Below are positions 12,089 to 36,439 of a stretch of 37,850 bases of DNA, piece by piece (position 1 is the first letter of the stretch; every line of letters starts with the position of its first letter). The position numbers and the translations under genes were made by a program. The notes beneath the pieces were generated by a model that had not been told where the DNA came from, made no database searches, and saw only the letters and a program-made list of their open reading frames with translations. The DNA comes from Chloroflexota bacterium (lineage in GTDB: Bacteria > Chloroflexota > Limnocylindria > P2-11E). The DNA lies in contig VBDV01000117.1 in assembly GCA_005882765.1 (NCBI GenBank), forward strand, positions 1-37,850, written 5' to 3'.

Positions 12089-13257
12089 TGGTGACGACCG
12101 CAGCCGACACCGGGTTTGATCTGACGCTCACCGAGGAGCAGGAGCTCGCCCAGCGCGCGGCCCGCGACTTCGCGACCGAGAAGATCCTCCCGCGCGCGGC
12201 CGAGATCGACGATCAGGGCAAGCTCCCGCCCGAGCTGCTTCGCGAGATGGCCGGGCTCGGATTCATGGGCACCTACGTTCCCGAGCGGTACGGTGGCTCC
12301 GGCCTCGACGCGGTCTCGTACGTTCTGATCCTCGAGGAGATCAACCGTGCATGCGCGTCGACAGGCGTGATGCTCTGCTCACATGTTTCGCTCGCGGTCG
12401 ACCCGATCATGCACCACGGAAGCGACGCCCAAAAGGAGAAATACCTGCCGAAGCTCGCGCGCGGCGAGTGGATCGGCTGTTTCGCCCTCTCCGAACCAGC
12501 GTCAGGCAGCGATGCCGCCGCGATGCGAACTGCCGCACGACGCGACGGCGACGACTGGGTCTTGAACGGGACGAAGAACTTCATCACCAACGGAGCGATC
12601 GCCAACGTCGCGATCGTCTTCGCGCAGACCGACCCGGCCCAGAAGCACAAGGGCATCGCGGCGTTCATCGTCGAGAAGGGCACCCCCGGGTTCTCGGTCG
12701 GCAAGCTCGAGAAAAAGCTCGGGATTCGTGGGTCGGACACGGCGCAACTCGTTTTCCAAGATGCGCGGGTGCCCGCGGCGAATCTGCTGGGCGAGGCCGG
12801 CGAGGGATTCCGCATCGCCCTCTCGACCCTCGATGGCGGCCGCATCTCGATCGCGGCGCAGGCGGTCGGGATCGCGCGCGCGTGCCTCGAGGACTCCCTC
12901 GCATACGCCAAGCAGCGTGAAGCCTTCGGAAAGAAGGTCGCCGATTTCCAGGCGATCCAGTGGATGCTCGCGGATATGGCCACCGAGATCGACGCCGCTC
13001 GCCTGCTGACGTGGCGCGCCGCGGCATTGAAGGACGCGGGAGAAGACCACATCCTCGCCGCCGCGGAGGCGAAGCTTTTCGCGAGTGACGTCGCCGTCAA
13101 AGCCGCGCGCGACTGCGTGCAGATCTTCGGGGGCTACGGATATCTGAAAGACTTCCCGGCCGAGCGCCACTACCGCGACGCGAAGATCACGGAGATCTAC
13201 GAGGGAACCAGCGAGATCATGAAGCTCGTCATCGCGGAAGAGATCCTCAAAGAGTGA
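12088..13257 (+). CDS. Acyl-CoA dehydrogenase 1 (short-chain type)
   Basis: A 389-residue FAD enzyme that introduces the alpha-beta double bond of an acyl-CoA and passes electrons to Etf. It has the N-terminal helical domain, the central FAD motif FALSEPASGSDAAAMRT, the segment GTKNFITNGAIA, and the catalytic Glu at the usual short-chain position, Glu372 in IYEGTSEIMK. Overall it looks like a butyryl-CoA dehydrogenase class member. ATG 12088 overlaps the thiolase stop (TAATG). Substrate chain length or branching cannot be resolved from the sequence. Confidence 0.95.
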   Translation: MVTTAADTGFDLTLTEEQELAQRAARDFATEKILPRAAEIDDQGKLPPELLREMAGLGFMGTYVPERYGGSGLDAVSYVLILEEINRACASTGVMLCSHVSLAVDPIMHHGSDAQKEKYLPKLARGEWIGCFALSEPASGSDAAAMRTAARRDGDDWVLNGTKNFITNGAIANVAIVFAQTDPAQKHKGIAAFIVEKGTPGFSVGKLEKKLGIRGSDTAQLVFQDARVPAANLLGEAGEGFRIALSTLDGGRISIAAQAVGIARACLEDSLAYAKQREAFGKKVADFQAIQWMLADMATEIDAARLLTWRAAALKDAGEDHILAAAEAKLFASDVAVKAARDCVQIFGGYGYLKDFPAERHYRDAKITEIYEGTSEIMKLVIAEEILKE

Positions 13258-15245: not shown

Positions 15246-15364
15246 TGGATTTCACGGATGGCACGACCATCTTCGCGATCGCGTTCACCCTCGTGATGCT
15301 TGCCATCGCATTCGCGGTCGTCGTCTTCGCGCTTTGGTACACCGGGGACCAGCAGGAAATTTGA
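15245..15364 (+). CDS. 39-residue single-pass membrane microprotein
   Basis: GTG 15245 overlaps the last base of the FeS oxidoreductase TAG, and the TGA (15362-15364) overlaps the TTG of etfB as TTGA. The peptide starts VDFTDGTTIF, continues with about 22 hydrophobic residues (AIAFTLVMLA then IAFAVVVFAL), and ends WYTGDQQEI. It has no match to a family I know. The exact fit between two genes, with overlaps on both sides, a single membrane helix and a polar tail, argues that it is translated. It may be a small subunit of the EMO membrane complex, or may only serve translational coupling to etfB. It is too short for most gene callers. Confidence 0.6.
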   Translation: MDFTDGTTIFAIAFTLVMLAIAFAVVVFALWYTGDQQEI

Positions 15365-16128
15365 AGATCCTCATCCCGCTGAAGCAGGTGCCCGACTCGA
15401 CCGTGCGTGTGAAGGTCGGGCCGGATGGGAAATCGATCGTCACCGAGGGCATCACCTGGTCGATCTCGCCGTACGACGAGTACGCGATCGAGATGGCCCT
15501 CGAGCGCAAGGACGCGGATGCCTCGACGGTCGTCGCCGTCGTGACGGTCGGTCCGGCCCGCTCGCGCGACGCGCTGCGCCAGGCTCTCGCGATGGGCTGC
15601 GACGAGGCCTCGCTCGTGACAGCCGATGCGACAACACCACTCGGCGTCGCGCGCGCTCTCGCGAAGGTAGTCGAGGAAACGAAGCCGGACCTTGTGCTCT
15701 GCGGGAAGCAGGCGTCCGATGACGATCAGGGCTTCGTCGGCCCGGCGCTCGCCGAGCTTCTGGGGTGGCCGCACGTGGCGACGATCACGAAGGTCGTTCC
15801 TGTCGAAGGCGGAGTCGAGCTCTGGCGCGAGGTCGAGGGCGGTCACGAGGTCTGGAAGGCTGCGCTTCCCGCGCTTGCGACGGTGCACAAGAGCGAGAAG
15901 GAGCCACGGTACCCGTCGCTTCCCGGGATCATGAAGGCGAAGAAGAAGGACATACCCGAGCGAGCGATCGGTGCGCTCGGCGTCGACGCGTCCGGGCCGA
16001 GCTGGACGATCCTTTCGATGGAGCCACCGGCGGCGCGCGGCGGGGGCAAGATCCTGAAAGACGGAGACAGCAAGCAGATCGCGGAGCAGCTTGCGACTGC
16101 GCTGCGCGACGAGGCGAAGGTCCTGTGA
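15361..16128 (+). CDS. etfB: Electron transfer flavoprotein beta subunit
   Basis: A 255-residue EtfB: KILIPLKQVPDSTVRVKV at the N-terminus (key residues KQVPD), DEYAIEMALE, the nucleotide-binding segment around LCGKQASDDDQG and VEGGHEVW. It binds AMP or FAD and forms a heterodimer with EtfA. TTG 15361 was chosen because it places the conserved KILIPLKQ motif at the start and overlaps the microprotein stop. Electrons from the three acyl-CoA dehydrogenases would be collected here. Confidence 0.95.
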   Translation: MKILIPLKQVPDSTVRVKVGPDGKSIVTEGITWSISPYDEYAIEMALERKDADASTVVAVVTVGPARSRDALRQALAMGCDEASLVTADATTPLGVARALAKVVEETKPDLVLCGKQASDDDQGFVGPALAELLGWPHVATITKVVPVEGGVELWREVEGGHEVWKAALPALATVHKSEKEPRYPSLPGIMKAKKKDIPERAIGALGVDASGPSWTILSMEPPAARGGGKILKDGDSKQIAEQLATALRDEAKVL

Positions 16129-17003
16129 AGACGCTTGTCGTCGCCGAACGCAAAGGCACCGAGCTCCGCCGCGTCACGCTCGAGCTGGCTGCGAAGGCGC
16201 GCGAGCTTGGCGAGGCGGCGGTCGTGGAGATCGCCGGGGAGCGCTACTCGCCGCTGCCGTTCGTGTCGGCGCTCGCGAAAAAGGTGGAGTCCGACAAGCC
16301 GGACCTCGTCCTCCTGGGCGCGACCCTGAACGGGCGCGATCTGGGCGCGCGCCTGGCGGCGCGGCTGGGTCGGGCCTACGCGGCCGACGTGACCGGCCTA
16401 CGTGCGGCCGGGAACGCGCTCGAGGCGGACAAGCCGATGTACGCGGGCAAGGTGCGCGCGAAAGTGCAGCTCGGTCTTCCGGCGGTGGTCTCGGTGAGGC
16501 CCGGCGCTATCCCGCTGAAGAGCGCCGAGGCGCCGCAGGTCGACAAGATCGATGCGGACGGATCCGTCGAGAAGCTCACCTTCGTGAAGCTCGTGGCCAC
16601 GGCGACAGACACGAAGCGCGTCTCGCTGTCGGAAGCACGGGTCGTCGTGTCGGGCGGCCGGGGCCTCAAAGGCCCCGAGAACTGGCATCTCGTCGAGGAG
16701 CTCGCCGATGCCCTCGGCGGCGCCGTGGGCGCATCGCGCGCCGTCACGGACGCCGGATGGCGGCCGAACGAGGAGCAGGTCGGGCAGACCGGGAAGACGG
16801 TGACGCCAGACCTTTACGTCGCTCTCGGCATCTCGGGCGCGATCCAGCACCTGGCGGGCATGACCTCGAGCAAGGTGATCGTCGCGGTGAACAAGGATCC
16901 AGACGCCGACATTTTCAAGATCGCCGACTACGGCGTCGTGGCCGACGTCTTTGAGTTCGTCCCGGCATTTACGGACGCGGTGAAACGGGCTCGAGCGTCG
17001 TGA
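16125..17003 (+). CDS. etfA: Electron transfer flavoprotein alpha subunit
   Basis: A 292-residue EtfA, slightly shorter than typical. The C-terminal FAD domain is complete: VVSGGRGLKGPENW, GASRAVTDAGWRPNEEQVGQTGK (family pattern, key GASR and QVGQTG), YVALGISGAIQHLAGM and the closing INKDPDA-like motif VNKDPDADIF. GTG 16125 overlaps the etfB stop as GTGA. It transfers electrons from acyl-CoA dehydrogenases to the membrane FeS oxidoreductase encoded upstream. Confidence 0.95.
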   Translation: MKTLVVAERKGTELRRVTLELAAKARELGEAAVVEIAGERYSPLPFVSALAKKVESDKPDLVLLGATLNGRDLGARLAARLGRAYAADVTGLRAAGNALEADKPMYAGKVRAKVQLGLPAVVSVRPGAIPLKSAEAPQVDKIDADGSVEKLTFVKLVATATDTKRVSLSEARVVVSGGRGLKGPENWHLVEELADALGGAVGASRAVTDAGWRPNEEQVGQTGKTVTPDLYVALGISGAIQHLAGMTSSKVIVAVNKDPDADIFKIADYGVVADVFEFVPAFTDAVKRARAS

Positions 17004-18148
17004 ACCCGTTCGTCGGGGCGACCGAGCGCGAGCTCGCGGGCGCGGTAGCCGATTGGGCGAAGGGTCTGGCCGGGCGCATACCGGCGGCGGAGAAGGAAGG
17101 CGCGCTTCCCCGCGACGTCATCGCCGACCTCGGGCGTCTCGGCGTCCTCGGAATGACGATCCCGGAAGCCGCCGGCGGGCTCGGCGCGTCGGGCGTCGGG
17201 TTCGCGCTGGTGCTCGAGGAGCTCTCCGCGGCGTGGCCCTCGCTGGCGGTCGGCGTGGCCGTCAACAGCGGCATCGTGGCCGGCTCCATCGTCCGACATG
17301 CGACTGTGGAGCAGCGCCAGCGCTGGCTGCCCAAGCTCATGGATGGCTCCGGGCTCGGCGCGTTTGCGCTGACCGAACCGACGTCCGGGAGCGACGCCGC
17401 GTCGCTGCGGACGGCCGCGCGACGGGAGGGCGGCGGCTGGCGCATCGACGGGCAAAAGCAGTTCATCACGAACGCGCGGTACGCGCCGTTCGCGATCGTG
17501 CTCGCGCGGGTCGGCGAGCTCGACCCAAAGCGAACGGCGGCGGGCATCACGGCGTTCGTCGTGCCGCTCGACGCGCCGGGCGTTTCAGTCGGTAGACCCG
17601 AGCGCAAGCTCGGCCTCCGCGCCTCGGACACGAGTGCCATCGTCATGGACGGCGCCACGATCGGCGCCGACGCGGTCCTCGGCGAGGTCGGCAAAGGCTT
17701 CGCGATCGCCATGAGCGGGCTCGATGGCGGACGCATCGGGATCGCCGCGCAGTCGGTCGGCATCGCGCGCCGGGCGCTCGAGCTCGCGCGCGCGTACGCG
17801 AAGGAGCGGAGGCAGTTTGGCCGCCCGATCGCCGATTTCGAAGGCCTTCGATTCAGCATCGCAAAAGCGGAGAGCGATCTTGCCGCGTCGCGTCTCCTCG
17901 CGCTCCGCGCGGCCTGGCTCCGCGATCGCGGCCGTCCGTTCACGCGCGAGGCCGCCATGGCCAAGCTGTACGCGAGCGAGATGGCACAGCGCGCCACCCA
18001 CGCCGCCGTCCAGATCCTCGGTGGCAACGGCTACATGCGGGATTACGCAGTCGAGCGTTACGCGCGGGACGGCCGCGCGACGACGATCTACGAAGGGACG
18101 AGCGAGATACAGCGCATCGTTATCGCGCGCTCGCTGCTCGCGGCATGA
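17000..18148 (+). CDS. Acyl-CoA dehydrogenase 2
   Basis: A 382-residue member of the acyl-CoA dehydrogenase family. FAD motif FALTEPTSGSDAASLRT, segment QKQFITNARYA and catalytic Glu365 in IYEGTSEIQR are all present, so it should be active. It differs clearly from the other two dehydrogenases of the operon (for example ITNARYA instead of ITNGAIA), suggesting a different substrate. GTG 17000 overlaps the etfA TGA. The gene is followed by a 22-base gap before the mutase large subunit. Confidence 0.94.
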   Translation: MNPFVGATERELAGAVADWAKGLAGRIPAAEKEGALPRDVIADLGRLGVLGMTIPEAAGGLGASGVGFALVLEELSAAWPSLAVGVAVNSGIVAGSIVRHATVEQRQRWLPKLMDGSGLGAFALTEPTSGSDAASLRTAARREGGGWRIDGQKQFITNARYAPFAIVLARVGELDPKRTAAGITAFVVPLDAPGVSVGRPERKLGLRASDTSAIVMDGATIGADAVLGEVGKGFAIAMSGLDGGRIGIAAQSVGIARRALELARAYAKERRQFGRPIADFEGLRFSIAKAESDLAASRLLALRAAWLRDRGRPFTREAAMAKLYASEMAQRATHAAVQILGGNGYMRDYAVERYARDGRATTIYEGTSEIQRIVIARSLLAA

Positions 18149-18170
18149 CGATCCAGAAGGCCGGGACAAA

Positions 18171-19904
18171 ATGAAAGGGAAGCTCGAGCGACGAGCGATT
18201 CACTCGCGACGAGCGAGTCAACCAGCCATGAGCGCGTCTTCGGGCGTCGCCCGAAGATTGAGCAAGCAGCGCTGGCTCGACGACGTCTACAACGCCGCAA
18301 CAAAGAAGCACGCGGAGCGCAAGAGCAGGTTTTCGACGCTCTCCGACGAGGTGATCGAGCCGCTCTACACGGCGGACGATCTCGAAGGGTTCGATCCCGA
18401 CCGCGATCTCGGCTTCCCCGGGGAATTCCCGTACACGCGCGGCGTGCAGCCATCGATGTACCGCGGCCGTCTCTGGACGATGCGCCAGTTCGCGGGGTTC
18501 GGCTCGGCCGAGGACACCAATGAGCGCTTCCACTATCTCCTCAAGCACGGCGTCGACGGTCTCTCGGTCGCGTTCGATATGCCGACGCTCATGGGCCGCG
18601 ACTCGGACGACCCCCTGTCGCGTGGCGAGGTCGGGCGAGAGGGCGTGGCCGTCGACACGCTCCGCGACATGGAGATTCTGTTCAACCGCATACCGCTCGA
18701 CCGCGTGACGACCTCGATGACCATCAACGGGCCGGCCTCGATCGTGTGGGCGATGTATATCGCCGCGGCCGAGAAGCGCGGCATTCCGCTCGACCGTCTC
18801 GGCGGAACGATCCAGAACGACGCGCTCAAGGAGTACATCGCGCAGCGTGAGTGGATCGTTCCCGTCAAGCCGGCGATGGGTCTCGTCGTGGACACGTTCC
18901 GCTACGGCTCGCGTGAGGTGCCGCGCTGGAACACGATCTCGATCTCCGGCTACCACATCCGCGAAGCCGGGGCGACCGCGTTGCAGGAGCTCGCGTTCAC
19001 TCTCATCGATGGGCTCGAGTACGTGAAGTGGGGGGTCGCGGCTGGACTCGACGTCAACGACTTCGTGCCGCATCTCTCGTTCTTCTTCGACGTGCATAAC
19101 GATTTCTTCGAGGAGATCGCGAAGTTCCGCGCGGCCCGGCGCATCTGGGCACGGGAGATCGAGCGCCGCTACCACCCAACGAACGAGCGCGCCCTTCTCA
19201 TGCGCACCCACGCCCAGACCGCCGGCGTTTCGCTCACGGCGCAGCAGCCGTACAACAACGTCGTTCGTGTGACGCTGCAGGCGCTCGCCGCTGTGCTCGG
19301 CGGAACGCAGTCGCTGCACACGAACTCGCTCGACGAGACCTACGCCCTACCGACGGAGGAGGCGGTGACCCTTGCGCTTCGCACGCAGCAGGTCATCGCG
19401 CACGAGTCTGGGGTCGCGGACACGATCGACCCGCTCGCCGGCTCGTACTACCTCGAGTCGCTCACCGAGCGCATGGAGCGGGGCTTCGATCGCTACCTGG
19501 GCGAGATCGAGAAGATGGGCGGGATGGTCGAGGCGGTCGACCGGGGCTTTCCCCAGCGCGAGATCACGGAAGCCTCCTTTCACTTCCAGCAGCAGGTCGA
19601 GGAGGGGGAGAAGATCGTCGTCGGGATCAATAAGTACGCGACGAGTGAGCAAACGACGATCCCGACTCTCGCGATAGACACCGAGGTCGAGCGGAAACAG
19701 ATCGCGCGGCTCGCGGAGACGCGGAAGACGCGGGATCGCGGCCGCTGGAATGAGTCAATTGACGCACTCCGGCACGCCGCCAAGCGCGGGGATGAGCTCA
19801 TGCCCCGCTTTGTCGAGTGCGCCAGGGCAAACGCCAGCGTCGGCGAGCAGGTACTTGTGCTGAAGGAGGTCTTCGGTGAGTACCACGATCCCGGCTACTT
19901 CTAA
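18171..19904 (+). CDS. B12-dependent acyl-CoA mutase large subunit, isobutyryl-CoA mutase-like
   Basis: A 577-residue substrate-binding subunit of a two-subunit adenosylcobalamin mutase. It has the whole TIM barrel (SVAFDMPTLMGRDSDDP, GTIQNDALKEY, SISGYHIREAG, TAQQPYNNVVR, QSLHTNSLDE) but no B12 domain, which is encoded separately downstream. The residue equivalent to Tyr89 of methylmalonyl-CoA mutase is Phe107 (WTMRQFAGFG). The equivalent of Arg207 is Gln225 (KEYIAQREW). That Phe/Gln pair is the isobutyryl-CoA mutase signature, so butyryl-CoA/isobutyryl-CoA interconversion is the better call. ATG 18171 has AGAAGG upstream; ATG 18228 is an alternative that fits the length of relatives. Confidence 0.9.
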   Translation: MKGKLERRAIHSRRASQPAMSASSGVARRLSKQRWLDDVYNAATKKHAERKSRFSTLSDEVIEPLYTADDLEGFDPDRDLGFPGEFPYTRGVQPSMYRGRLWTMRQFAGFGSAEDTNERFHYLLKHGVDGLSVAFDMPTLMGRDSDDPLSRGEVGREGVAVDTLRDMEILFNRIPLDRVTTSMTINGPASIVWAMYIAAAEKRGIPLDRLGGTIQNDALKEYIAQREWIVPVKPAMGLVVDTFRYGSREVPRWNTISISGYHIREAGATALQELAFTLIDGLEYVKWGVAAGLDVNDFVPHLSFFFDVHNDFFEEIAKFRAARRIWAREIERRYHPTNERALLMRTHAQTAGVSLTAQQPYNNVVRVTLQALAAVLGGTQSLHTNSLDETYALPTEEAVTLALRTQQVIAHESGVADTIDPLAGSYYLESLTERMERGFDRYLGEIEKMGGMVEAVDRGFPQREITEASFHFQQQVEEGEKIVVGINKYATSEQTTIPTLAIDTEVERKQIARLAETRKTRDRGRWNESIDALRHAAKRGDELMPRFVECARANASVGEQVLVLKEVFGEYHDPGYF

Positions 19905-21609
19905 AGACACGCTGCGCCGCCAGATCAGCCAGAGCTACCGCGCGCTGCGATCGTCGCTCGAGGCGCTCCCTCGCGACCGATTTACGGAGAAGCTCAGCAC
20001 AGGGTGGTCCCTCAACGAGAACATCGCGCACCTTGCGGCGTGGGAGGAGACCGTGCCGAAGCGCGTCGCCGCGGTGCTCGAGAGCGGAGAGGACCCGAAG
20101 CTCTACGACGATGTCGACGCGTTCAACGCGCGCGCCGCAGCAGAGGCGCAAGGCAAGACGACGGATGAGCTCTTCGCGCGCTGGTCCGCCGCGCACGAGG
20201 CTGTGCTCGAGACGGTCCGTTCGCTCCCCGAGGACGCCGACAAGCTCATGTTCGACATCGTCGAATGGAACACGACGGGCCACTACCCCGACCACTTCGC
20301 CGACATCGACGCGGCGATCCGCACGAAAGACGATCTCTTCGGGCTGGTCCAAACGAACTGGATCGCCTTCCGACTGGCCATCGGCGCGATCGGATTGCCC
20401 GCGCTCGAAAACGCGACCTCGAGCGGCTGGACCTACAAGGACCTCGTCGCGCACGCGGCCGCCTGGGAAGACCACATCGCGATGCGCCTCAAGGGGATGC
20501 GCGAGACAGGTGCGGAGACCTATCCCGGAGTCGACGATGCGGACGCGTTCAACGCCGACGTCGTGGAGCGGACGCGCGGTCGCGCGGCCGCCGACGTGAT
20601 CCGCGAGCTCGACGCCGCCCATGAGCGGATGATCGCCGAGCTCCAGCAACTGACGCCCGAGCGGATCCACGCGAACAACAGCTGGGTCGTCGGCGTCGTG
20701 GCCTCCGACACGTACGGTCATTACGCCCAGCACTTCGACGAGGTCTTCGCTGCCGTTCCGAAAAAGCCGGCGGAGCTCCTCGAGCGCATGCGCGAGGGCT
20801 GGCGCCCGTTCCGCCGCGGTCTGAATCGCCTCGGCCTCGTTCCGCTCTCGGAGAAGACGCCCGCGGGCTGGACCTACAAGGGGATGCTCGGGCACGTCGC
20901 GAACTGGATGGAGAAGATCCCGGACGAGATGCCGAACCGTCTCGCCGGGCGCCGCGGGCCGACGCCAGATGTCGACGCGGAGAACGCGCGTGAGGCGAAG
21001 GAGGGCGAGACGCGCTCAGCGCACGACGCGGTGAGCCGCCTGGATGCCGCGTACAAGACCGTTGTCGATCTCGTCACAGCACTTCCCGCGGACCGCGACA
21101 TCCCCTTCCTCGCGACCCGCCTCGTGGTCGGCGAGACGTACGGCCACTTCGTCGAGCACAGCGGCGAGATCGAGGCGGCGCTGCCCCGCACCGCGGACGA
21201 CTTCATCAAGACCATCGAGAAGGTCTGGAAGCCGTTCCGGGCGGTGATCCGCGAGCGCGGCCGAGCCGGGCTCACCGAGAAGACCTCGACCGGGTGGACC
21301 TGCAAGGACATCGTCGCGCACTCGATCGGCTGGATGGAGCAGACGATCCGCGAGATGCGGAGCGGCGAGCTCAGCACCGGCTGGACGAAGGAAACGATCG
21401 ACGCCTACAACGCACGATCTGTGCGGACGCACGAGCTCGTCGGTCCTGAGGCGATCGTCGACGAGCTCGACACCGTCTATCGCAATCTCGTCGAGACGAT
21501 CCGCGGTCTCGGCGACGGCCCGATCGACGAGCGCTTCGCGAGCACGATGCCCTACTACACGTACCTCCACTGGGAGGAGCACTTCGCGGAGCTCGGCGTT
21601 CCGCTATGA
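19876..21609 (+). CDS. Tandem four-domain DinB-like protein
   Basis: A 577-residue protein made of four copies of a DinB/DUF1706-like four-helix domain. Each copy has a GW motif followed by a helix with His: [48 protein letters not shown] and [16 protein letters not shown]. The Trp residues are at 44, 185, 332 and 474, a period of about 143. Each copy ends with a second motif such as [27 protein letters not shown] or YLHWEEHF, giving the His residues of the usual metal site. GTG 19876 lies 29 bases inside the mutase large subunit gene and its stop overlaps the ATG of the B12 subunit. Function is unknown; DinB-fold proteins include thiol transferases and metal-dependent enzymes. Confidence 0.85.
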
Positions 21610-22019
21610 AGCGACCCATCCGCGTCGTCGTCGCGAAGGCCGGCCTCGACGGTCACGACCGCGGCGCGAAGGTCGTGGCACGCGCGTTGCGCGATGCCGG
21701 GATGGAAGTGATCTACACCGGCGTGCACCAGACACCCGAGCAAGTCGTCGAGACGGCCCTGCAGGAGGACGCCGACGCGATCGGCCTCTCACTGCTCTCA
21801 GGCGCGCACAACTACATCTTCCCGCGGGTCAGCGAGCTGATGAAGGAAAAGGGCCTGGACGACGTGCTTCTCTTCGGCGGCGGCATCATCCCCGAGGCGG
21901 ACTGGCCGGCACTCGCGAGAGTCGGCGTCGAGAAAGTCTTTCCTCCGGGCGCGTCGCTCGAGGAGATCACGACATACGTGCGCGAGGCCGTGCCGCGAAA
22001 GCGTGGGGCCGCCGCATGA
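21606..22019 (+). CDS. Cobalamin-binding small subunit of acyl-CoA mutase
   Basis: A 137-residue B12-binding domain with the classic D-x-H-x-x-G motif (Asp15, His17, Gly20 in [10 protein letters not shown]), the SLLSGAH segment and GGGIIPEAD that cradle the cobalamin tail. Its length matches separate small subunits such as IcmB. It pairs with the large subunit encoded at 18171-19904, from which it is separated by the DinB-like gene. ATG 21606 overlaps the previous TGA (ATGA). Coenzyme loading is probably assisted by the MeaB protein encoded downstream. Confidence 0.93.
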
Positions 22020-22123
22020 CCTACCGCGAGAACCCGTCGTTGCGGCAACCCGTCGAGAGAGAAGTCGGCGAGCAACGAGACAACGAGATAGCGCGCGACG
22101 TCAAGAAAGCGAGGGGGATAAAG

Positions 22124-22504
22124 ATGGCAAAGAAGGACGACAGACCGGTCGACGCAGGACTTGCGGCACTCGTGGGCAAGAGCGAACAGGAGCTCATCGA
22201 TTTTTGGAAGCAACGCTTCGGACTCATCGCGGCGATACCGGTGGATACGGCGCGCGTCGGCGCGCTCACGCCGCAGCTTCGCGAGCTCGTGCGCATCCAA
22301 AATCGCGAGGAGCGCAAGCGTCTCACCGCCGCGCGAATGAAGGCGTTCGTGCAGCTTCCGGGCGACCAACAGGAGCGGATCACGAAGACGCGCCAGGCCG
22401 CGTACAACGTCGACCGAGCCGTCCTCGAGGAGGACCAGCGAATGGTCGATGAGCTCCTGCCGACCATTGCGGAAGCCAGGAACTACCCAACCGCGGCTCG
22501 TTGA
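22124..22504 (+). CDS. Conserved-looking protein of unknown function in the mutase operon
   Basis: A 126-residue, mostly helical, charged protein (MAKKDDRPVDAG; SEQELIDFWKQRFGLI; LRELVRIQNREERKRL; EEDQRMVDELLPTI). I do not recognise a family. ATG 22124 was chosen because GAGGGGG lies six bases upstream. An alternative ATG at 22016 overlaps the B12 subunit stop as ATGA and would add 36 polar residues. No signal peptide or membrane segment is seen. Its place between the B12 subunit and an acyl-CoA dehydrogenase suggests a role with the mutase, such as a helper or regulator, but this is inference. Confidence 0.75.
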   Translation: MAKKDDRPVDAGLAALVGKSEQELIDFWKQRFGLIAAIPVDTARVGALTPQLRELVRIQNREERKRLTAARMKAFVQLPGDQQERITKTRQAAYNVDRAVLEEDQRMVDELLPTIAEARNYPTAAR

Positions 22505-22511
22505 AGTTCGC

Positions 22512-23645
22512 TTGAACTTTTCGTACCGGGACGATCAGCTCCTCGTTCGCGATACGGTCCGCGACTTCGTGCAGTCGCGGATCGTTCCGAACGCCGAAGC
22601 CTGGAACGAGAAGGGCGAATTTCCGCTCGAGATCCTTCCCGAGCTAGCGGCCCTCGGTCTCACCGGACTCGCGGTGCCTCACGAGTACGGCGGCGCCGAG
22701 CTCGACGTGCTGACGATCGCGCTCGTGATGGAGGAGCTCGGCGCGGGCGACGGCTCCATCGCGCTCACTGTCGCCGCCCACAACTCGCTCTGCATCGGCC
22801 ACCTGCTCATGGTGGCGAGCGAAGAGCAAAAGTCGCGCTGGCTTCCACCGTTAACCCGCGGCGAATACCTCGGATGCTGGGCGCTCACCGAGCCATCGTC
22901 GGGCTCCGACGCCATAAGCGTCCAGAGCCGCATCCGCCGCGAGGGCGACGACTACGTGCTCTCGGGGACAAAGCAATTCATCACCAACGGATCGATCGCC
23001 GGATTCGCGGTCATCCTCGCCGGCGCGGGCGAGCGCAAGCTTTCAGCGTTCGGCGTCCCCCGCGGGACCGACGGCTTTCGGGTCGGCCGCCGCGAGGAGA
23101 AGATGGGCCTCCACGCGTCGGATACCGCGCAGCTCGTGCTCGACGATTGCCGCGTCCCGGCAGCGGACCGTATCGGCCGCGACGGGGACGCCTTCACTGA
23201 CGTGAAAGGCGTGCTCGACAAGGGGCGCATCGGGATCGGTGCGCTCGCCATTGGCCTTGGCCGGGCGTCGCTCGACATCGCGATCGGGTACGCGAAGGAG
23301 CGCCGGCAGTTCGGCAGACCGATCGCCGAGTTCGAGATGATCCAATGGCGCCTCGCGCGCGCCCGCACCGAGCTCGACGCGGCTCGTCTTCTCGTTCACC
23401 GGGCCGCGACCCTCGCCGACGCGGGCCTGCGGTTTACCGACGCGGCGTCGAAGGCCAAGCTCTATGCGTCGGAGGCCGCGACGCGTGCCGCCGACTCGTC
23501 GCTTCAAGTACTCGGCGGATATGGATACCTCCAGGACTTTCCGATCGAACGCCACCTGCGCGACGTCCGTCTCATGGAGATCGGCGAAGGCACCAGCGAG
23601 ATCCAGCGGATCGTCATCGCTCGCGAGCTCCTTCACGTCGACTGA
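22512..23645 (+). CDS. Acyl-CoA dehydrogenase 3
   Basis: A 377-residue acyl-CoA dehydrogenase with the FAD motif WALTEPSSGSDAISVQS, the segment GTKQFITNGSIAG and the catalytic Glu359 in IGEGTSEIQR. The residue before the Glu is Gly instead of the usual Tyr, as in a subset of the family. The start is TTG 22512 (MNFSYRDDQLL), the first start in frame with the conserved N-terminus; earlier starts lie inside the previous gene. It is the third dehydrogenase of the operon and, next to mutase and MeaB, may act on the branched product of the mutase. Confidence 0.92.
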   Translation: MNFSYRDDQLLVRDTVRDFVQSRIVPNAEAWNEKGEFPLEILPELAALGLTGLAVPHEYGGAELDVLTIALVMEELGAGDGSIALTVAAHNSLCIGHLLMVASEEQKSRWLPPLTRGEYLGCWALTEPSSGSDAISVQSRIRREGDDYVLSGTKQFITNGSIAGFAVILAGAGERKLSAFGVPRGTDGFRVGRREEKMGLHASDTAQLVLDDCRVPAADRIGRDGDAFTDVKGVLDKGRIGIGALAIGLGRASLDIAIGYAKERRQFGRPIAEFEMIQWRLARARTELDAARLLVHRAATLADAGLRFTDAASKAKLYASEAATRAADSSLQVLGGYGYLQDFPIERHLRDVRLMEIGEGTSEIQRIVIARELLHVD

Positions 23646-24586
23646 TGGCCGCGACGGCGACCGGCGACCTCCTCGCTCGCGCGCGCGGCGGTGACAAGCG
23701 GTCGATCGCGCGGCTTTTGTCGGTCGTCGAGAACGACGGGCCCGGCGCGGCCGAGGCGATGCGCGCGCTCTACCCGCAGACCGGACACGCCCAGATCGTC
23801 GGGATGACCGGCCCACCTGGCGGTGGCAAATCCACTCTGGTCAACCGTCTCGCCGGGATCTATCGCGAACGTGCGCCACGGGTCGCCATCGTCGCGGTGG
23901 ATCCCTCCAGTCCGTTCACCGGGGGTGCGATCCTTGGCGACCGCATCCGCATGCGCGAGCGATTCCTCGACGACGGTGTCTTCATTCGCTCGATGGCGAG
24001 TCGCGGGCACGCCGGAGGTCTGGCTCGCGCGACCGCGCGCGTCGTAAACGTCCTCGACGCCCTCGGGACGGACGTCGTCCTCGTCGAGACCGTGGGCGTC
24101 GGCCAGGAGGAGGTCGACGTCATCCGCGTCGTGGACACCGTCTGTCTGGTGACCGTCCCGGGCCTCGGCGACGACATACAGGCGATCAAGGCGGGGGTCC
24201 TTGAGATCGCCGACGTGCTCGTTGTGAACAAAGCGGATCGCCCCGGCGCCGACGAGACCGCGCGCGACCTCGCGCAGATGCTCTCGCTCGCCAAGGATCG
24301 TCCCTGGAAGACTCCGATTTTGCGGACGTCCGCCCAGTCAGGGGACGGTCTGCCGCAGCTCGTCGAGGCGATCGACCGGCACGGGGCCTGGTCGCGCGAG
24401 TCGGGCGAGTACCAGCGTCGCCAGCGCGCGGCCGCGCGAAGCGAGGTCGAAGCGCTTCTGCAGGAGGCGCTGCTGCGCGAGCTCGCGGGCCGCGTTGGTG
24501 AATCTCGTCTCGACGCCGCGGTCGCTCGTGTCGCGGACCGCTCCATCGATCCGTATGCCGCAGTGGAGGAGCTCCTGCGCGGGTGA
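23645..24586 (+). CDS. meaB: MeaB/ArgK-type GTPase, mutase chaperone
   Basis: A 313-residue G3E GTPase that gates loading of adenosylcobalamin onto acyl-CoA mutases and protects them. The P-loop is GPPGGGKSTL, followed by VAVDPSSPFTGGAILGDRIRM, the Walker B/switch segment VETVGVGQEE and the base-specifying NKAD. The C-terminal dimerisation arm is present. ATG 23645 overlaps the previous TGA (TGATG). Clustering with both mutase subunits fits its known role. Confidence 0.95.
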   Translation: MAATATGDLLARARGGDKRSIARLLSVVENDGPGAAEAMRALYPQTGHAQIVGMTGPPGGGKSTLVNRLAGIYRERAPRVAIVAVDPSSPFTGGAILGDRIRMRERFLDDGVFIRSMASRGHAGGLARATARVVNVLDALGTDVVLVETVGVGQEEVDVIRVVDTVCLVTVPGLGDDIQAIKAGVLEIADVLVVNKADRPGADETARDLAQMLSLAKDRPWKTPILRTSAQSGDGLPQLVEAIDRHGAWSRESGEYQRRQRAAARSEVEALLQEALLRELAGRVGESRLDAAVARVADRSIDPYAAVEELLRG

Positions 24587-25323
24587 TCGAGCTGACGCTC
24601 TTACGGACCGGTCTGATCGATCTGCCGCGCTCGACATTCTTTCCGGAGGGCGGACCCGAGATCATTCGTATTCCGGTGTGGTCGGCACTTCTTCGGACGA
24701 GCGAGGGCATCGTCCTCTTCGATACCGGTCTTCATCCCGTCCATGTCGACCGCCCCGACGCGACGTACGGCCCGAAGAGCTCCGTGAAACCGGTCATGGT
24801 TCGCGATGACGCGATCGTCGCGCGTCTCGCAAGCGTCGGGGTCCGTCCCGACGATGTCGCCATAGTCGTGAACAGCCATCTCCACTTCGACCATGCCGGC
24901 AACAACGGCGCCTTCCCAAAGGCGCGCTTCGTTGTCCAGGGTGAGCATCTCGCGTACGCGAAAGGCAAGCCGAACTTCCCGGGCGTGTATTGGGACATCC
25001 CGGAGCTGAGCTACTTGCCGGTAGCCGGGCGGACCCGCGTCGCACCCGGGCTGGAGGTGGTGCCGACCCCGGGGCACGCACCGGGGCATCAGTCGCTGAT
25101 CGTTGATCTTCAGGAAACCGGACGAGTCGTGCTTTGCGGCGATGCCGCGTTCACGCGCGAGAACCTGGAGCGCGGCGTGATCCAGGCCCAGGATGACGGG
25201 GCCGCGACGGAATCGCTCGCGCTCATCCGCTCCCTCGTCGACGACGATCTCGACCGCGTCTTCCCGAGCCACGACGCCGCCGGTTGGCTGGGCTGGCGTC
25301 ATGCGCCGGAGATATACCGCTGA
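24583..25323 (+). CDS. Metallo-beta-lactamase fold hydrolase (lactonase-like)
   Basis: A 246-residue MBL-fold enzyme with the di-zinc motif SHLHFDHAGN, a later His in TPGHAPGHQS, the bridging Asp in LCGDAAF and a final His in PSHDAAGW. The pattern is that of N-acyl homoserine lactonase-like (AttM/AiiA) proteins. GTG 24583 overlaps the meaB stop. In this operon it could act on a lactone or thioester rather than a quorum signal; the substrate cannot be read from sequence. Confidence 0.9.
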   Translation: MIELTLLRTGLIDLPRSTFFPEGGPEIIRIPVWSALLRTSEGIVLFDTGLHPVHVDRPDATYGPKSSVKPVMVRDDAIVARLASVGVRPDDVAIVVNSHLHFDHAGNNGAFPKARFVVQGEHLAYAKGKPNFPGVYWDIPELSYLPVAGRTRVAPGLEVVPTPGHAPGHQSLIVDLQETGRVVLCGDAAFTRENLERGVIQAQDDGAATESLALIRSLVDDDLDRVFPSHDAAGWLGWRHAPEIYR

Positions 25324-28041: not shown

Positions 28042-28878
28042 ATGCCTCGTCCACAGGCTCCTCCGGTCCAGATAGCGCGCTGGCGCGCCGGCGACTGGCG
28101 CGACGACAGCGATCAGGTCGCCGCCGAGGAGCCGCTTCAGCTGTCGCTCGATGGCAAGCCGCTATCCATCGTCATGCGGACGCCAGGCAATGACCTCGAG
28201 CTCGCGCTGGGACTTCTGTGGGCCGAGCAGGTCATCCGATCGCTCGACGACGTGGCTCGCGTACGCATCAGCGCCGAGGCACAGGAGAACGAGCCACGTG
28301 TGGCGGTCGCGAACGATCTCGTGGAATCGAATCAGGTCGACGTCTACCTCCGCGGGAGCGCGGGTCGCCGTCCGGAGCGTTCGTTCCTGGCCACGTCGGC
28401 ATGCGGGGTTTGCGGGGCCACGACGGTCGAGTCGCTTGCGCTCGACTTCGCGCCCCTAGCAGCCGGTCCCACGGTCGGCGCGGCGATGCTTCCACGGCTT
28501 TCGGACCGCCTCCGCGTGCAGCAGCGCATCTTCGAGTCGACGGGAGGCCTTCACGCGGCCGGACTCTTCGACGAGCGGGGCGAGCTACAGCTCCTTCGCG
28601 AGGACATCGGCCGGCACAACGCCGTGGACAAGGTCGTTGGGCGCGCGCTGCTCGATGGCCGGCTGCCGCTCGAGCGGTCGGTGCTCGCGGTGAGCGGGCG
28701 CGCCGGATACGAGGTCGTGCAGAAGGCGGTCGCGGCGGGCATCCCGATCCTCGCGGCGGTCGGCGCTCCCTCGAGCCTCGCCGTGGCCACCGCGGAGCGC
28801 TTCGGGATGACGCTCGTCGGCTTCCTTCGGGACGACCGGTTCAACGTCTACACCTCGCCCGAACGGATCGGGAGGTAG
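28042..28878 (+). CDS. fdhD: Formate dehydrogenase accessory sulfurtransferase FdhD
   Basis: A 278-residue FdhD that inserts sulfur into the molybdenum or tungsten cofactor of formate dehydrogenase. The conserved CxxC is Cys121/Cys124 in TSACGVCGATT, and the later motifs FESTGGLHAAGLF, REDIGRHNAVDKV and VSGRAGYEVVQK are complete. ATG 28042 lies immediately after a palindrome, with no visible ribosome site. The formate dehydrogenase genes are 1.5 kb downstream on the same strand, separated by an esterase and a minus-strand gene. Confidence 0.96.
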   Translation: MPRPQAPPVQIARWRAGDWRDDSDQVAAEEPLQLSLDGKPLSIVMRTPGNDLELALGLLWAEQVIRSLDDVARVRISAEAQENEPRVAVANDLVESNQVDVYLRGSAGRRPERSFLATSACGVCGATTVESLALDFAPLAAGPTVGAAMLPRLSDRLRVQQRIFESTGGLHAAGLFDERGELQLLREDIGRHNAVDKVVGRALLDGRLPLERSVLAVSGRAGYEVVQKAVAAGIPILAAVGAPSSLAVATAERFGMTLVGFLRDDRFNVYTSPERIGR

Positions 28879-30337: not shown

Positions 30338-33300
30338 ATGCCGGAAATCACGCGTCGTGAGTTCCTGAAGCTCGGAGCCGCCGGCACCGCCGGCATGGCG
30401 CTCGTTCCACTTGCAAATCCCCTTGGGTTCGACCTCGCCCCGGCAAAGAAGCGAGCGCTCGACCTGCGGATTGCCGGCGCCAAAGAAGTCCACTCGCTGT
30501 GTCCGTACTGTGCGGTCGGCTGCTCTCTCATCGCTTACACGAAGGAGATCAACGGAAAGGCCCAGCTTCTCCAGATCGAGGGTGATCCCGACAGCCCGGT
30601 GAACGAGGGACGGCTGTGCCCGAAGGGCGCGACAGCGATGCAGCTCGCCACGAGCTCCCGCCGAGTCGAGAAGCCGCAGTACCGCGCCCCGGGCAGCAGC
30701 AAGTGGGAAGAGAAGTCCTGGGACTTCATGCTCGACAAGCTCGCTCAGAACATCAAGGCGTCACGCGACAACACGTTCGTCGCGCAGGACGCGAACGGGA
30801 ACACCGTCAACCGCACGGAGGGAATCGCGTTCGCCGGGGGCGCCGCGTTCTCGTCGGAGGAGGGGTACTTCGCCACGAAGCTCATGCGGAGCTTGGGCGT
30901 CGTACACATCGAGCAGCAAGCCCGGGTCTGACACGGCCCAACGGTGGTCAGTTTGGCCGCCTCATTCGGACGGGGAGCGATGACGAACCACTGGCGTGAC
31001 ATCAAGCACGCCGATCTCATCCTCATCAACGGCGCCAACCCGGCCGAGGCGCATCCGGTCGGGTTCCAGTGGTTCGTGAAGGCGAAGCTCGACCCGACGA
31101 AGGGACCGGGTGCCGGCGGGGGCGCCAAGATCATTCACGCCGACCCTCGCTACACGCGAACGTCGGCGATGGCCGACATGTACTTACGCATCCGGACGGG
31201 AACCGACGTCGCGTACTTCGGCGGACTGATCAACTACGTCATCCAGAACAAGCTCTATCACGAGGAGTACGTCAAGAACTACACGAATGCGTCATTCATC
31301 GTGAAGCAGGGCTTCGACTTCAATGACGGTCTCTTCACCGGATACAACAGTTCCACGCGCGCGTACGACACCTCGACCTGGACGTACGAGACAGAGGGCG
31401 AGCCGATTGCGGGCGCTCCCGCGGGCACAACGCAGGCCGCCGCGAAGCGCGACAAGACGCTCCAGGATCCGCGGACCGTTTGGCAGCTCATGGCCAAGCA
31501 CTACTCGCGCTACACGCCTGAGATGGTGTCGAGCATCACCGGCATACCGGTCGATCAGTTCAACGCGGTCGCCAAAATGGTCGGCGAGATGGGCAAGCCG
31601 GACAAGGTCATGACCATCGTCTATGCGGTGGGACTCACCCATCACACCACCGGCGGCCAGCTCATCCGCTCGGGCGCGCTGCTCCAGCTCATTCTCGGCA
31701 ACATGGGCCGTCCGGGCGGTGGGATGAACGCCGAGCGCGGCCACGCCAACATCCAGGGCAACACCGACCACGCGATCAGCTGGGAGATCCTGCCGGGTTA
31801 CCTCCGCATCCCCGCTCCGGGTCAGAAGAACCTCGACGACTACGTCCGTCTCAGTGCGCCCAAGAAGAGCGATCCGAACTCGTGGAACTTCTTCGGGACG
31901 AATTACCGCAACTTCATGGTGAGCCTGCTCAAGGGCTGGTACGGCGCGAAGGCCACGAAGGACAACGAGTACGCCTTCGACTTCATCCCGAAGCCAGCCG
32001 TGAACTCCTCGTGGATGTCCATCTACGACCAGGCGCTGAAGGGAAAGATGGAAGGCGTGATCCTCTCGGGTATGACCGCCACCTCCATCGGACCGGATTC
32101 CAATCAGGTCATGACCGCCCTCGGGAAGCTGAAGTGGCTCGTGGTGATGGACCCGCTTCCCACGACGAGCTCGGAGTTTTGGAAGGCGCCGAACGTCGAT
32201 CCGGCGTCGATCCAGACCGAGGTCTTCATGCTGCCGACGACCCACTGGATCGAGAAGGACGGCTCGTTCGTCAACAGCGGCCGCTGGTCACAGTGGAAGG
32301 ATCAGGTCATCCCGCCAGAGGGCGAGGCTAGACACGACCACTGGGTCCTGGCTGACCTCTTCGACCGCGTGAAGACGCTGTACAAGAATCAGAGCGGCAA
32401 ATTCCCCGATCCGTTGATGGCGCTCACGCTCGACTACAAGGATCCGAAGAAGCCCGAGCTCGAGGAGATCGCGAAGGAGATCAACGGAAAGAACCTGACG
32501 ACAGGCGGACAGATGGCGAGCTTCGCTCTCCTGAAAGACGACGGCACGACGACGGCAGGCGACTGGATCTACACCGGAAGCTATCCGGACGCGGGCAACC
32601 TCGCGAAGCGGCGTAACGGAATCTCCAACCCGACGCAGAACGATCCGACGGGCATGGGCTTCTACCCCAACTGGGCCTGGAGCTGGCCCCTCAATCGGCG
32701 AGTCATGTACAACCGCGCATCCGCCGACATCCATGGCAAGCCGTGGGACCCCAAGCGGCCGGGCATCCAGTGGAACGGCACGACGTGGGTAGGCGATGTC
32801 CCGGATTACCCACCCACGATGAGCCCAGAGGATCCGGCGGCGTGGCTGCCATTCATCATGAACGGCGAGGGCGTCGGACGGCTCTTCTCGAACTCGATGA
32901 TCGACGGCCCCTTCCCCGAGCACTACGAGCCGGTCGAGGCGCCCATCGCCAACCCTCTGCACCCGCAGCAATCGGAGGATCCGGTCGCGTTCCTCTACGA
33001 CCAGGCCGCCGGGCGCCCGAATCGCTTTGGGAAGGCCGCGGACTTCCCGTACGTCGCGACGAGCTACCGCCTCACCGAGCACGAGCACTACGTCACGCAA
33101 CACGTCCCGTTGCTGGTCGGCCTCCAGCCGCAGGCGTTCGTCGAGGTACCAGCGGAGCTCGCCGACCAGAAGAGCATCAAGAGCGGCGACCGGGTCCGCG
33201 TCTCAAGCGCAAGGGGCAAGCTCGAGGTCGTCGCCCTCGTGACCAAGCGCCTCGGGCCGATCACGCTCGCCGGGAACAAGACGGTCTATCAGATCGGCAT

Positions 33301-33454
33301 CCCGATCCACTGGGGCTTCGTCGGGGTCTCCGCGGAACAGAACCCCGACCGATCGAAGTACTGGCTTGCAAATGCGCTCACGCCGTTCGTCGGCGATGCC
33401 AACGCGAGGACGCCCGAGTTCAAGGCGTTCCTCGTGAATATCGAGAAGCTCTGA
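30338..33454 (+). CDS. fdhA: Formate dehydrogenase catalytic subunit, selenocysteine-containing, Tat-exported
   Basis: A 1038-residue molybdopterin enzyme oxidising formate to CO2. It begins with a twin-arginine signal (TRREFLKLGAAG), so it should be exported folded. A [4Fe-4S] site follows (SLCPYCAVGCSL) and then the bis-MGD domains, with a beta-barrel domain at the C-terminus (DRVRVSSARGK). The in-frame TGA at 30929-30931 (codon 198) lies in the context QQARV-U-HGPTVVSLA, exactly where FDH-N enzymes carry selenocysteine. Similarity continues without shift beyond it (FGRGAMTNHW, NPAEAHPVGFQW). Read normally the gene would look like two fragments (30338-30931 and 30944 onward); it is one intact gene. 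fdhE, fdhB and nrfD follow. Confidence 0.95.
30943..30961 (+). promoter_or_regulatory. SECIS-like hairpin directing selenocysteine insertion
   Basis: Directly downstream of the TGA, GGUGGUC (30943-30949) pairs fully with GGCCGCC (30955-30961), seven pairs including two G-U, around the loop AGUUU. The loop begins 18 bases after the TGA, similar to bacterial SECIS elements in E. coli formate dehydrogenase genes as I recall them. SelB binding is inferred. Confidence 0.65.
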
Positions 33455-34251
33455 TGACACTGGTAGCGGAGCCGACTACGACGTACGAGCAGCGCCGCGA
33501 GCGCGCACGCGAGCTCGGCGCGCGCCTCGACTTTGCACAGCAGCCGCTCGCGCTCTACCTCGCCATCGTCGATGCGCAGGAGCGCGCATTCGAGCGAGCG
33601 CGGACCGATCGCCCCAATCGCGACGACCTCGTGTCCTATGTCGTTCGCACGGCGCTGCCCGGGGTCATGGAGGCGGCGGTCGCCGCGGGCACTGAGACCT
33701 TGCGTGAGGCGACTTTGCTTCGTTTTCACGAAGCCGACCTCGAGGGGCTGATCGAAGCCTGGCTCGACGGCGACGAGACATCGGGCACGGACACCTTCCT
33801 CGCGCGGGCGAGCACCCAACCGGTGCTCGAGGCGCTGCCCGATCTCGCGGCGGCGCTCCGGAGCAGCGAGATCACCGACGATCGGCATTGCCCACGCTGC
33901 GGGGGCCTTCCGCAGGTCGCGGTGTTCCCGGAGACGGGCGAGGCTCTCTTGACAGCGCAGCGCACCCTCGTGTGCTCGCGTTGCGCCGACGAATGGGTGA
34001 TGAGCCGAATGACTTGCGCGTCGTGCGGCGAGACGTCGGGTGCGAAAATACCGATTCTCTCGGACGTGGACCTCTTCCCGCACCTTCGGATCGACGCGTG
34101 CGAGATGTGCCGGCGCTACCTCATCACGGTCGATCAGCGTAAGGACTCGCGCGCCGTCCCGACAGTCGACGAGCTCGCGGCGCTGCCGCTCGATCTGGTC
34201 GCCGCCGAACGCGGCTACACCAAGATCGCGCGCAATCTGATGGGGTTCTAA
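33454..34251 (+). CDS. fdhE: Formate dehydrogenase accessory protein FdhE
   Basis: A 265-residue FdhE with four CxxC knuckles: HCPRCGG, VCSRCADEW, TCASCGE and ACEMCRRYL, which bind metal. In E. coli FdhE interacts with the catalytic subunits of Tat-dependent formate dehydrogenases and helps their maturation. ATG 33454 overlaps the fdhA stop as TGATG, so the chaperone is made together with its client. Its location between the catalytic and FeS subunit genes is less common than a separate position. Confidence 0.93.
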   Translation: MTLVAEPTTTYEQRRERARELGARLDFAQQPLALYLAIVDAQERAFERARTDRPNRDDLVSYVVRTALPGVMEAAVAAGTETLREATLLRFHEADLEGLIEAWLDGDETSGTDTFLARASTQPVLEALPDLAAALRSSEITDDRHCPRCGGLPQVAVFPETGEALLTAQRTLVCSRCADEWVMSRMTCASCGETSGAKIPILSDVDLFPHLRIDACEMCRRYLITVDQRKDSRAVPTVDELAALPLDLVAAERGYTKIARNLMGF

Positions 34252-34255
34252 AGGT

Positions 34256-35101
34256 ATGGCTGCATTCCAAGAACGCCCGATGGGATTCTTCACCGACACG
34301 TCGATCTGCATCGGCTGCAAAGCCTGCGAGGTCGCGTGTAAGGAGTGGAATCAGCTCCAGGGTGATCCGGCGAAATTTACCGCGGACTCGTACGACAACA
34401 CCGGTCAGCTCGACGCGCAGAACTGGCGGCACGTGCAGTTCATCGAGCAGGTGCCGGACAACAACGGTGTCGTCTTCAACCCGACGCCCATCGCCGGCGG
34501 GCAAGCCTGGCTGATGATGAGCGACGTCTGCAAGCACTGTAAGAACGCGAGCTGCATGGAAGTGTGTCCGACGAATGCCCTCATGCGGACCGAGTACGAC
34601 ACCGTGTACATCCAGAACGACGTCTGCAACGGCTGCCGCAACTGCATCTCTGCCTGCCCGTACGGGGTCATCGGCTTCAACGAGGAAAAGGGCATCGCCC
34701 AGAAGTGCACGCTCTGCTACGACCGTCTGCAGGGCGGCCTCCAACCGGCGTGCGCGAAGGCCTGCCCAACCGAATCGATCAAGTTCGGCTACATCGACGA
34801 TCTGCACAAGGTCGCCGACGATCGGCTCGCCAACTTGAAGACGCAGGGATATGCGAAAGCGCAGCTCTACGGCCGCGATGAGAAGGTGTACGGCGGGCTC
34901 AACGCGTTCTTCCTGCTGATGGACAAGCCCGAGGTCTACAAGCTGCCGAGCGAGGCCAACGCCACCCTTCCCAGCCGCAACAACCTCCCGGGCTATGTCG
35001 GCGGTGTCGCGACTGCCGTCGTCGGGCTCATCGCCGGTCTCCTCGCATTCCGTAGTGGCCGCATGAACGCGAATAACAACACCACGACGACGCCCCGCTG
35101 A
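34256..35101 (+). CDS. fdhB: Formate dehydrogenase FeS subunit
   Basis: A 281-residue protein with four [4Fe-4S] ferredoxin motifs: CIGCKACEVACKEW, CKHCKNASCMEVCP, CNGCRNCISACPYG and CTLCYDRLQ...CAKACP. A single membrane segment lies near residues 247-266 (VGGVATAVVGLIAGLLAF). It carries electrons from the catalytic subunit to the NrfD-type membrane subunit and is probably co-exported with it, having no signal peptide of its own. ATG 34256 follows fdhE by 4 bases, with AAAGGT just upstream. Confidence 0.94.
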   Translation: MAAFQERPMGFFTDTSICIGCKACEVACKEWNQLQGDPAKFTADSYDNTGQLDAQNWRHVQFIEQVPDNNGVVFNPTPIAGGQAWLMMSDVCKHCKNASCMEVCPTNALMRTEYDTVYIQNDVCNGCRNCISACPYGVIGFNEEKGIAQKCTLCYDRLQGGLQPACAKACPTESIKFGYIDDLHKVADDRLANLKTQGYAKAQLYGRDEKVYGGLNAFFLLMDKPEVYKLPSEANATLPSRNNLPGYVGGVATAVVGLIAGLLAFRSGRMNANNNTTTTPR

Positions 35102-35985
35102 TGGAGCACTTCGCTTCGCCGCCGCACTGGGAGTGGTGGATCCTCGGGTACTTCTTCTTCGGCGGCATCTCGGGTGGAAGCTATGCGCTCGGCACGCTTC
35201 TCCGTTTTAGCGGCAATGCGCGGGACGAAAGCGCCGCGCGCGTTGCCTTCATCACGAGCTTCATCGCGCTCGTACCGTGCCCCATTTTCCTCACCATCGA
35301 TCTGGGCCAGCCGCTTCTCTTCTGGCACATGCTCGTGGACACGAGCAACGGCGGGCTTGCATTCAAACCGGACTCGCCGATGAGCCTTGGCTCCTGGGCG
35401 CTCCTCATCTTCGGTGTCTTTTCGTTCGTGTCGTTCCTGGGCGCGATCGCCGAAGTCGGTTGGTTCCGCGCCACGAACGGCATCGGGCGCGCGCTGCGCG
35501 GTGCCGCCGGTCTTGTGTGGAGCGCGATCGGCACGGTGTTCGGGCTATTCATCTGCGCGTACACCGGCGTGCTCCTGGCGGTGTCGAACCAAGCGGTGTG
35601 GAGCGACGCCGGTTGGGCGCTCGGCGGTATGTTCGTCGCGTCGGCCCTCGCGGGCTCCGCGGCTCTCTTGCTGCTCCTCGCTCGTTCGCGCCGTGATGTC
35701 GACGCTGACACCGCCGTTCGGCTTGAATCGGCGGACCGTTACTTCGCGATCCTCGAGACGATCCTGATCGCGATCTTCCTGGTGCTCCTCGCGATCGCCG
35801 GAACCATCGGCAAGGTGCTTGGCGTATGGATCGTGCTCTGGGTCCTCGTGATCCTCGGACTCCTCGCGTCGCTGGCGATGCGTTCTGGCGCCGCACGACG
35901 GTGGCCGCCTGTCGCGGCGCCGATCCTCGCGCTTCTCGGCGTCCTCGCGCTGCGTGCGCTCGTCATCTTCAGCGCTCAGACGTAG
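35101..35985 (+). CDS. nrfD: NrfD/PsrC-type membrane subunit
   Basis: A 294-residue protein of eight or more hydrophobic helices with the family opening WEWWILGYFFFGGISGGSYALG (key GGISGGSYA). This family oxidises or reduces quinone in molybdopterin complexes, replacing the cytochrome b subunit of E. coli FDH-N. It indicates formate-to-menaquinone electron transfer with no b-heme in this subunit. ATG 35101 overlaps the previous TGA. Confidence 0.92.
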   Translation: MEHFASPPHWEWWILGYFFFGGISGGSYALGTLLRFSGNARDESAARVAFITSFIALVPCPIFLTIDLGQPLLFWHMLVDTSNGGLAFKPDSPMSLGSWALLIFGVFSFVSFLGAIAEVGWFRATNGIGRALRGAAGLVWSAIGTVFGLFICAYTGVLLAVSNQAVWSDAGWALGGMFVASALAGSAALLLLLARSRRDVDADTAVRLESADRYFAILETILIAIFLVLLAIAGTIGKVLGVWIVLWVLVILGLLASLAMRSGAARRWPPVAAPILALLGVLALRALVIFSAQT

Positions 35986-36001
35986 CGATCGGCCGCCACG
36001 C

Positions 36002-36439
36002 ATGAAGTGGATCACCCGAGAGCATCCGCGAGTCGACCGCGTGGCCTGTCCCTGGCTCGTCGAGAAGTTCGTCGACAAGAACGCCGAGTTTGTTTATGTG
36101 CCGGCGGATCAGGTCATGGCCGAAGCGCGAAAACAGGGTGCCACGCCATACGACGTGAAGGATGTCGAGCTAGGCCATCGCGGCGCCGAGTGCAGCTTCG
36201 ATGCATTTGTGCGGAAGTACGGACTCGTGACGGATCCGGCCATGGCGTACATGGCGAAGGTCATCCGGGGCGCCGATACCCCGGATAAGACGATCACGCC
36301 CGAATCCGTGGGCATCGAAGCGCTTCTCGAAGGAGTCCGCATCGTCTACCAGCCGAACGATCAAAAGCAGCGCGAGGCATCACGCCCGATCCTCGACGCC
36401 CTCTACGCGTACTGCCAGATGAAAGTCGCGGCCGTCTAG
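36002..36439 (+). CDS. ChrB C-terminal domain protein
   Basis: A 145-residue protein matching the ChrB C-terminal domain: MKWITREHPRVDRVACPWLV, EFVYVPADQV, ELGHRGAECSFDAFVRKYGL (key residues H-R-G-A-E-C) and MAKVIRGADT. In chromate resistance, ChrB is linked to a sensor or oxidoreductase, yet no ChrA transporter is present here. ATG 36002 lies 16 bases after the nrfD stop, so it belongs to the formate dehydrogenase operon. A redox or maturation role is inference. Its stop overlaps the DUF2795 gene's stop by 4 bases. Confidence 0.85.
   Translation: MKWITREHPRVDRVACPWLVEKFVDKNAEFVYVPADQVMAEARKQGATPYDVKDVELGHRGAECSFDAFVRKYGLVTDPAMAYMAKVIRGADTPDKTITPESVGIEALLEGVRIVYQPNDQKQREASRPILDALYAYCQMKVAAV

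Follow-up and report, generated by a model that had tools for sequence, protein, structure and literature searches.

Does an in-frame TGA in a formate dehydrogenase gene of an uncultured soil bacterium end the protein, or is it read as selenocysteine? The window analyzed here, a stretch of 37,850 nucleotides, belongs to a metagenome-assembled genome (MAG) of 2.75 Mb in 195 contigs, about 87% complete, and carries a gene, fdhA, that is interrupted by a TGA at codon 198 (Table 1). An earlier note on this DNA had proposed a selenocysteine codon at this position. Our data support that reading through the alignment with Escherichia coli FdnG and the recovery of selA, selB, selD, and tRNA-Sec, and we consider it nearly certain, as judged from sequence, that codon 198 is decoded as selenocysteine in FdhA by means of the Sel machinery and a SECIS hairpin.

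Table 1. Features of the formate dehydrogenase locus, in positions of the window
Feature	Position	Strand	Remarks
fdhD, formate dehydrogenase accessory sulfurtransferase	28042..28878	+	upstream of fdhA
fdhA, formate dehydrogenase alpha subunit, predicted as one selenoprotein ORF	30338..33454	+	1038 residues, Sec198
UGA codon predicted to be read as selenocysteine	30929..30931	+	Sec198, equivalent to Sec196 of E. coli FdnG
Bacterial SECIS upper hairpin, GGUGGUC-AGUUU-GGCCGCC	30943..30961	+	covariation, folding, loop conservation
fdhE-like formate dehydrogenase accessory protein	33454..34251	+	FdhE_C 1.3e-9; ATG overlaps fdhA stop
Iron-sulfur beta subunit (FDH-beta/PSR-type)	34256..35101	+	one C-terminal transmembrane helix
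NrfD-type membrane subunit	35101..35985	+	PF03916 5.2e-20; 7 hydrophobic segments (simple scan)

Reading frame and identity of FdhA

The fdhA frame opens with an ATG at 30338 and closes with a TGA at 33452-33454. Its sole internal stop is the TGA of codon 198, in the context QQARV-TGA-HGPTVVSLAASFGRG, and the frame is undisturbed before and after it. Mechanical ORF calling splits the gene into 30338-30931 (197 aa) and 30944-33454 (836 aa), the two false genes that the earlier note had expected from ordinary gene calling. Read through, the product matches TIGR01553, the equivalog HMM for the formate dehydrogenase-N (FDH-N) alpha subunit, with 1270.8 bits over residues 4-1037 (curated cut-off, 814.2). 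It contains molybdopterin, 4Fe-4S, and dinucleotide-binding domains. At its N terminus lies a twin-arginine signal, TRREFLKLG, whose profile match is borderline, lying just under its cut-off. The frame check and the whole-length profile match directly establish what kind of gene this is and bear out the claim that it is otherwise continuous.

The best solved homolog is E. coli FdnG (PDB 1KQF/1KQG), which aligns with residues 3-1037 (E 4.7e-297), and the in-frame similarity said to flank the TGA extends over nearly the whole protein in both comparisons. When the joined protein is set against FdnG, codon 198 falls exactly on Sec196, the crystallographic selenocysteine of 1KQF (X in ARV-X-HGPTV); the UGA therefore stands where a proven homolog has selenocysteine, as had been stated for FDH-N enzymes in general. 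An E. coli fdnG gene has an in-frame TGA at codon 196, and from the TGA onward 34 of 48 nucleotides are identical to fdhA. Besides full-length homology and the equivalent Sec, the two systems share the Tat signal, the ARV-U-HGPTV context, and a SECIS directly 3' of the UGA.

Conservation of the codon in relatives

Since the standard code reads TGA as a stop and the window is part of a draft MAG, the triplet might instead be a true stop: either fdhA is a decaying pseudogene with a nonsense mutation at this codon, or a TGC or TGT was misread in sequencing. Relatives argue strongly against this. TGA occupies the codon-198 site, in the same frame, in 105 of 105 homologous sites at which this codon and its flank were readable; TGC or TGT, either of which would have spoken against the earlier note's reading, occurs in none. 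These sites come from 80 named loci of a species collection and from related genomes; some genomes are present in both collections, and the 105 sites comprise 67 distinct 48-base sequences. They originate from Chloroflexi, Dormibacterota, Eremiobacterota, Rokubacteria, Acidobacteria, and Actinobacteria, in independent assemblies that include cultured strains of Streptomyces, Nonomuraea, Rhodococcus, and Amycolatopsis. The closest relatives are 84-89% identical to FdhA over the full length, and the gene contains no second internal stop. Because the TGA is universally conserved, sequencing error and gene decay are excluded for practical purposes, and a true stop at codon 198 has a negligible probability in our view.

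The distribution of selA follows that of FdhA in one direction. An FdhA homolog was found at E <= 1e-60 in 25 of 151 related genomes, with TGA in every match that spans residue 198, and selA was convincingly matched in 24 of these 25 genomes, all but G027, which is 88% complete. Many related genomes that lack an FdhA homolog also lack selA. The relation is one-sided, as many class-level relatives have selA without an FdhA homolog; these presumably use selenocysteine elsewhere.

Selenocysteine machinery of the genome

The earlier note held that the host must have selA, selB, selC, and selD and that none of them lies in the window. Both statements agree with our results: all four were directly found in the same assembly, on other contigs, whereas an Rfam scan at gathering thresholds and ARAGORN both gave no hit of any kind in the window, which therefore contains no sel RNA gene. 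A tRNA-Sec with anticodon UCA (74 bits) is present on contigs C147 and C174. The two regions (C147:1-642 and the start of C174) are 98.4% identical over 642 bases and are probably strain variants of one locus in the MAG rather than two genes. A third RF01852 match, on contig C122, is an ordinary tRNA-Ser and was rejected. The selA gene lies at C36:2425-3729 (515 bits), and selB starts just downstream at C36:4167; the stretch of it up to the contig end scores 309 bits. The selD gene, at C82:11789-12718 (L018; 340 bits), likewise contains an in-frame TGA (LSTCAG-U-GAKLGPG), which would make selenophosphate synthetase itself a second selenoprotein of the genome. A strong local hairpin is located 3' of that TGA.

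The state of the assembly gives two points against the selenocysteine reading. The sel genes are on other contigs of a MAG, for which misbinning is possible in principle, and the assembly yielded no match to the C-terminal winged helix of SelB (wing domain PF09107), the part expected to bind the SECIS, because contig C36 ends inside selB. In a relative of the same genus, selB likewise adjoins selA and encodes the whole protein (645 aa), wings 2 and 3 included.

SECIS hairpin

Immediately after the UGA, the sequence contains a hairpin that the earlier note does not mention. Its arms (30943-30949 and 30955-30961) form 7 bp around a 5-nt loop, AGUUU, with about -10.7 kcal/mol, a G at loop position 2, and a spacing of 18 nt from the UGA to the apical loop. 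All of these values lie within the published constraints for bacterial SECIS elements, namely, a loop of 3-9 nt, an upper stem of 4-16 bp, a G in the first two loop positions, a distance of 16-37 nt from the UGA, and an MFE of <= -7.5 kcal/mol (PMC13188914).

Single-sequence folding energy of the region is no better than that of shuffled sequences (z -0.41), which counts against the selenocysteine reading, so the structural case rests on covariation and codon conservation. In an alignment of 20 representative sequences, 92.9% of cells are paired and 3 of the 7 pairs show double compensatory changes. The covariation score is 0.431, compared with 0.207 +/- 0.026 for shuffled alignments and with 0 of 500 shuffles as high, a test that is inflated by the relatedness of the sequences; sliding the arms by 1-3 columns lowers the score to at most 0.213, and RNAalifold recovers the same hairpin. 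Across the 67 distinct sequences, the loop G and U never vary. Furthermore, every one of the 74 full-length loci that were readable in the named collection has AGT as the serine codon in the loop, while AGT makes up 2.9% of serine codons elsewhere in those fdhA genes. This conservation acts on the RNA and not on the protein.

That the frame stays open once TGA is given a residue could also reflect reassignment of TGA throughout the genome, for example, to tryptophan, or its reading by some other suppressor. However, among 23 ORFs of the window that were examined, 13, fdhA being one of them, terminate at an ordinary TGA, a codon that is therefore not globally reassigned. The tRNA-Sec (UCA) and selA, selB, and selD of the genome, the selenocysteine at the aligned position of the solved E. 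coli enzyme, and the covarying SECIS after the TGA all argue for selenocysteine instead, and we regard any other decoding as extremely improbable.

Operon and type of complex

The genes are arranged in the order fdhA-fdhE-FeS beta-NrfD, with fdhE between alpha and beta, and this order is kept across phyla in most relatives above about 60% identity; no NrfD match was detected near more distant FdhA homologs (Acidobacteria, Nitriliruptorales). The FDH-N label of the earlier note holds for the alpha subunit, which belongs to that family, but not for the complex: the third subunit is of the NrfD type and no FdnI-like cytochrome b556-type gamma subunit is encoded, so the complex is not a classical FDH-N (FdnGHI). 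In E. coli, by contrast, the gamma subunit FdnI is a 4-helix protein (PMC13332983), and the FdnG system also differs in that fdhE is not inside its operon.

With an FdnG-like A, an FdnH-like B, and an NrfD-like C encoded together, the gene content fits a complex of the FqoABC type with an FDH-N-family alpha subunit. FqoABC was proposed as a formate:quinone oxidoreductase by Calisto and Pereira in 2021 (PMC8076601), in a paper whose excerpted text lists it from Actinobacteria and Chloroflexi, describes the same combination of FdnG- and FdnH-like peripheral subunits with an NrfD-like membrane subunit, treats it as biochemically uncharacterized, and does not discuss selenocysteine, whereas the present alpha subunit has a Sec codon. 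The formate dehydrogenase of Rhodococcus equi (PMC13332983) likewise combines an alpha subunit, a beta subunit with one transmembrane helix, and an NrfD-type third subunit; the text of that publication never uses the word selenocysteine, in contrast to the Sec codon of the present fdhA. OmeA/OmeB of Dehalococcoides (PMC5736913; PMC10772276) also pair a Chloroflexota formate dehydrogenase-like catalytic subunit with a membrane subunit that lacks cytochrome b, but there serine replaces Sec/Cys at the key position and formate dehydrogenase activity is absent, whereas the Sec codon is intact here.

The window has further contents. Directly after the NrfD gene lies a gene for a ChrB C-terminal-domain protein (35954-36439), matched only in L052 among the 80 named loci. 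An acyl-CoA cluster (10916-24586) encodes a thiolase, three acyl-CoA dehydrogenases, EtfA, a large FeS oxidoreductase, the large and C-terminal parts of methylmalonyl-CoA mutase, and a MeaB GTPase; at 24583-25323 it is followed by a metallo-hydrolase that resembles quorum-quenching AHL lactonases with a score below the curated cut-off.

Discussion

Considering these data, we propose a model for FdhA synthesis and function that draws on the families concerned for selenocysteine insertion, the metal, and the direction of electron flow. First, SelA and SelD would serve to charge tRNA-Sec (UCA) and SelB would deliver it, with the hairpin immediately downstream directing it to the UGA of codon 198. 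Selenium would then serve as a ligand of the Mo/W center in a Tat-exported FdhA. By analogy, the complex likely oxidizes formate at the outer face of the membrane, electrons most likely passing through the FeS beta subunit and the NrfD-type membrane subunit to quinone.

Among bacterial selenoproteins, FdhA has the widest distribution (PMC13188914), and 103 FdhA selenoproteins had been counted by 2006 (PMC1794560). As the commonest bacterial case, selenocysteine in this FdhA is textbook and ordinary, a well-supported annotation correction rather than a surprise. We tentatively raise the possibility, which we think has the odds against it, that soil Chloroflexota, Dormibacterota, Eremiobacterota, Rokubacteria, and Actinomycetota share a single Sec-only clade of NrfD-anchored (FqoABC-type) formate dehydrogenases, which may have spread as an fdhA-fdhE-beta-nrfD cassette, with formate oxidation being a main reason for keeping the selenocysteine code in these lineages.

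The correction matters because standard callers split the gene, and the respiratory formate dehydrogenase of this lineage would then be missed or called broken. Read through, the locus links an NrfD-anchored formate dehydrogenase to a selenocysteine trait that is complete in this uncultured soil lineage.
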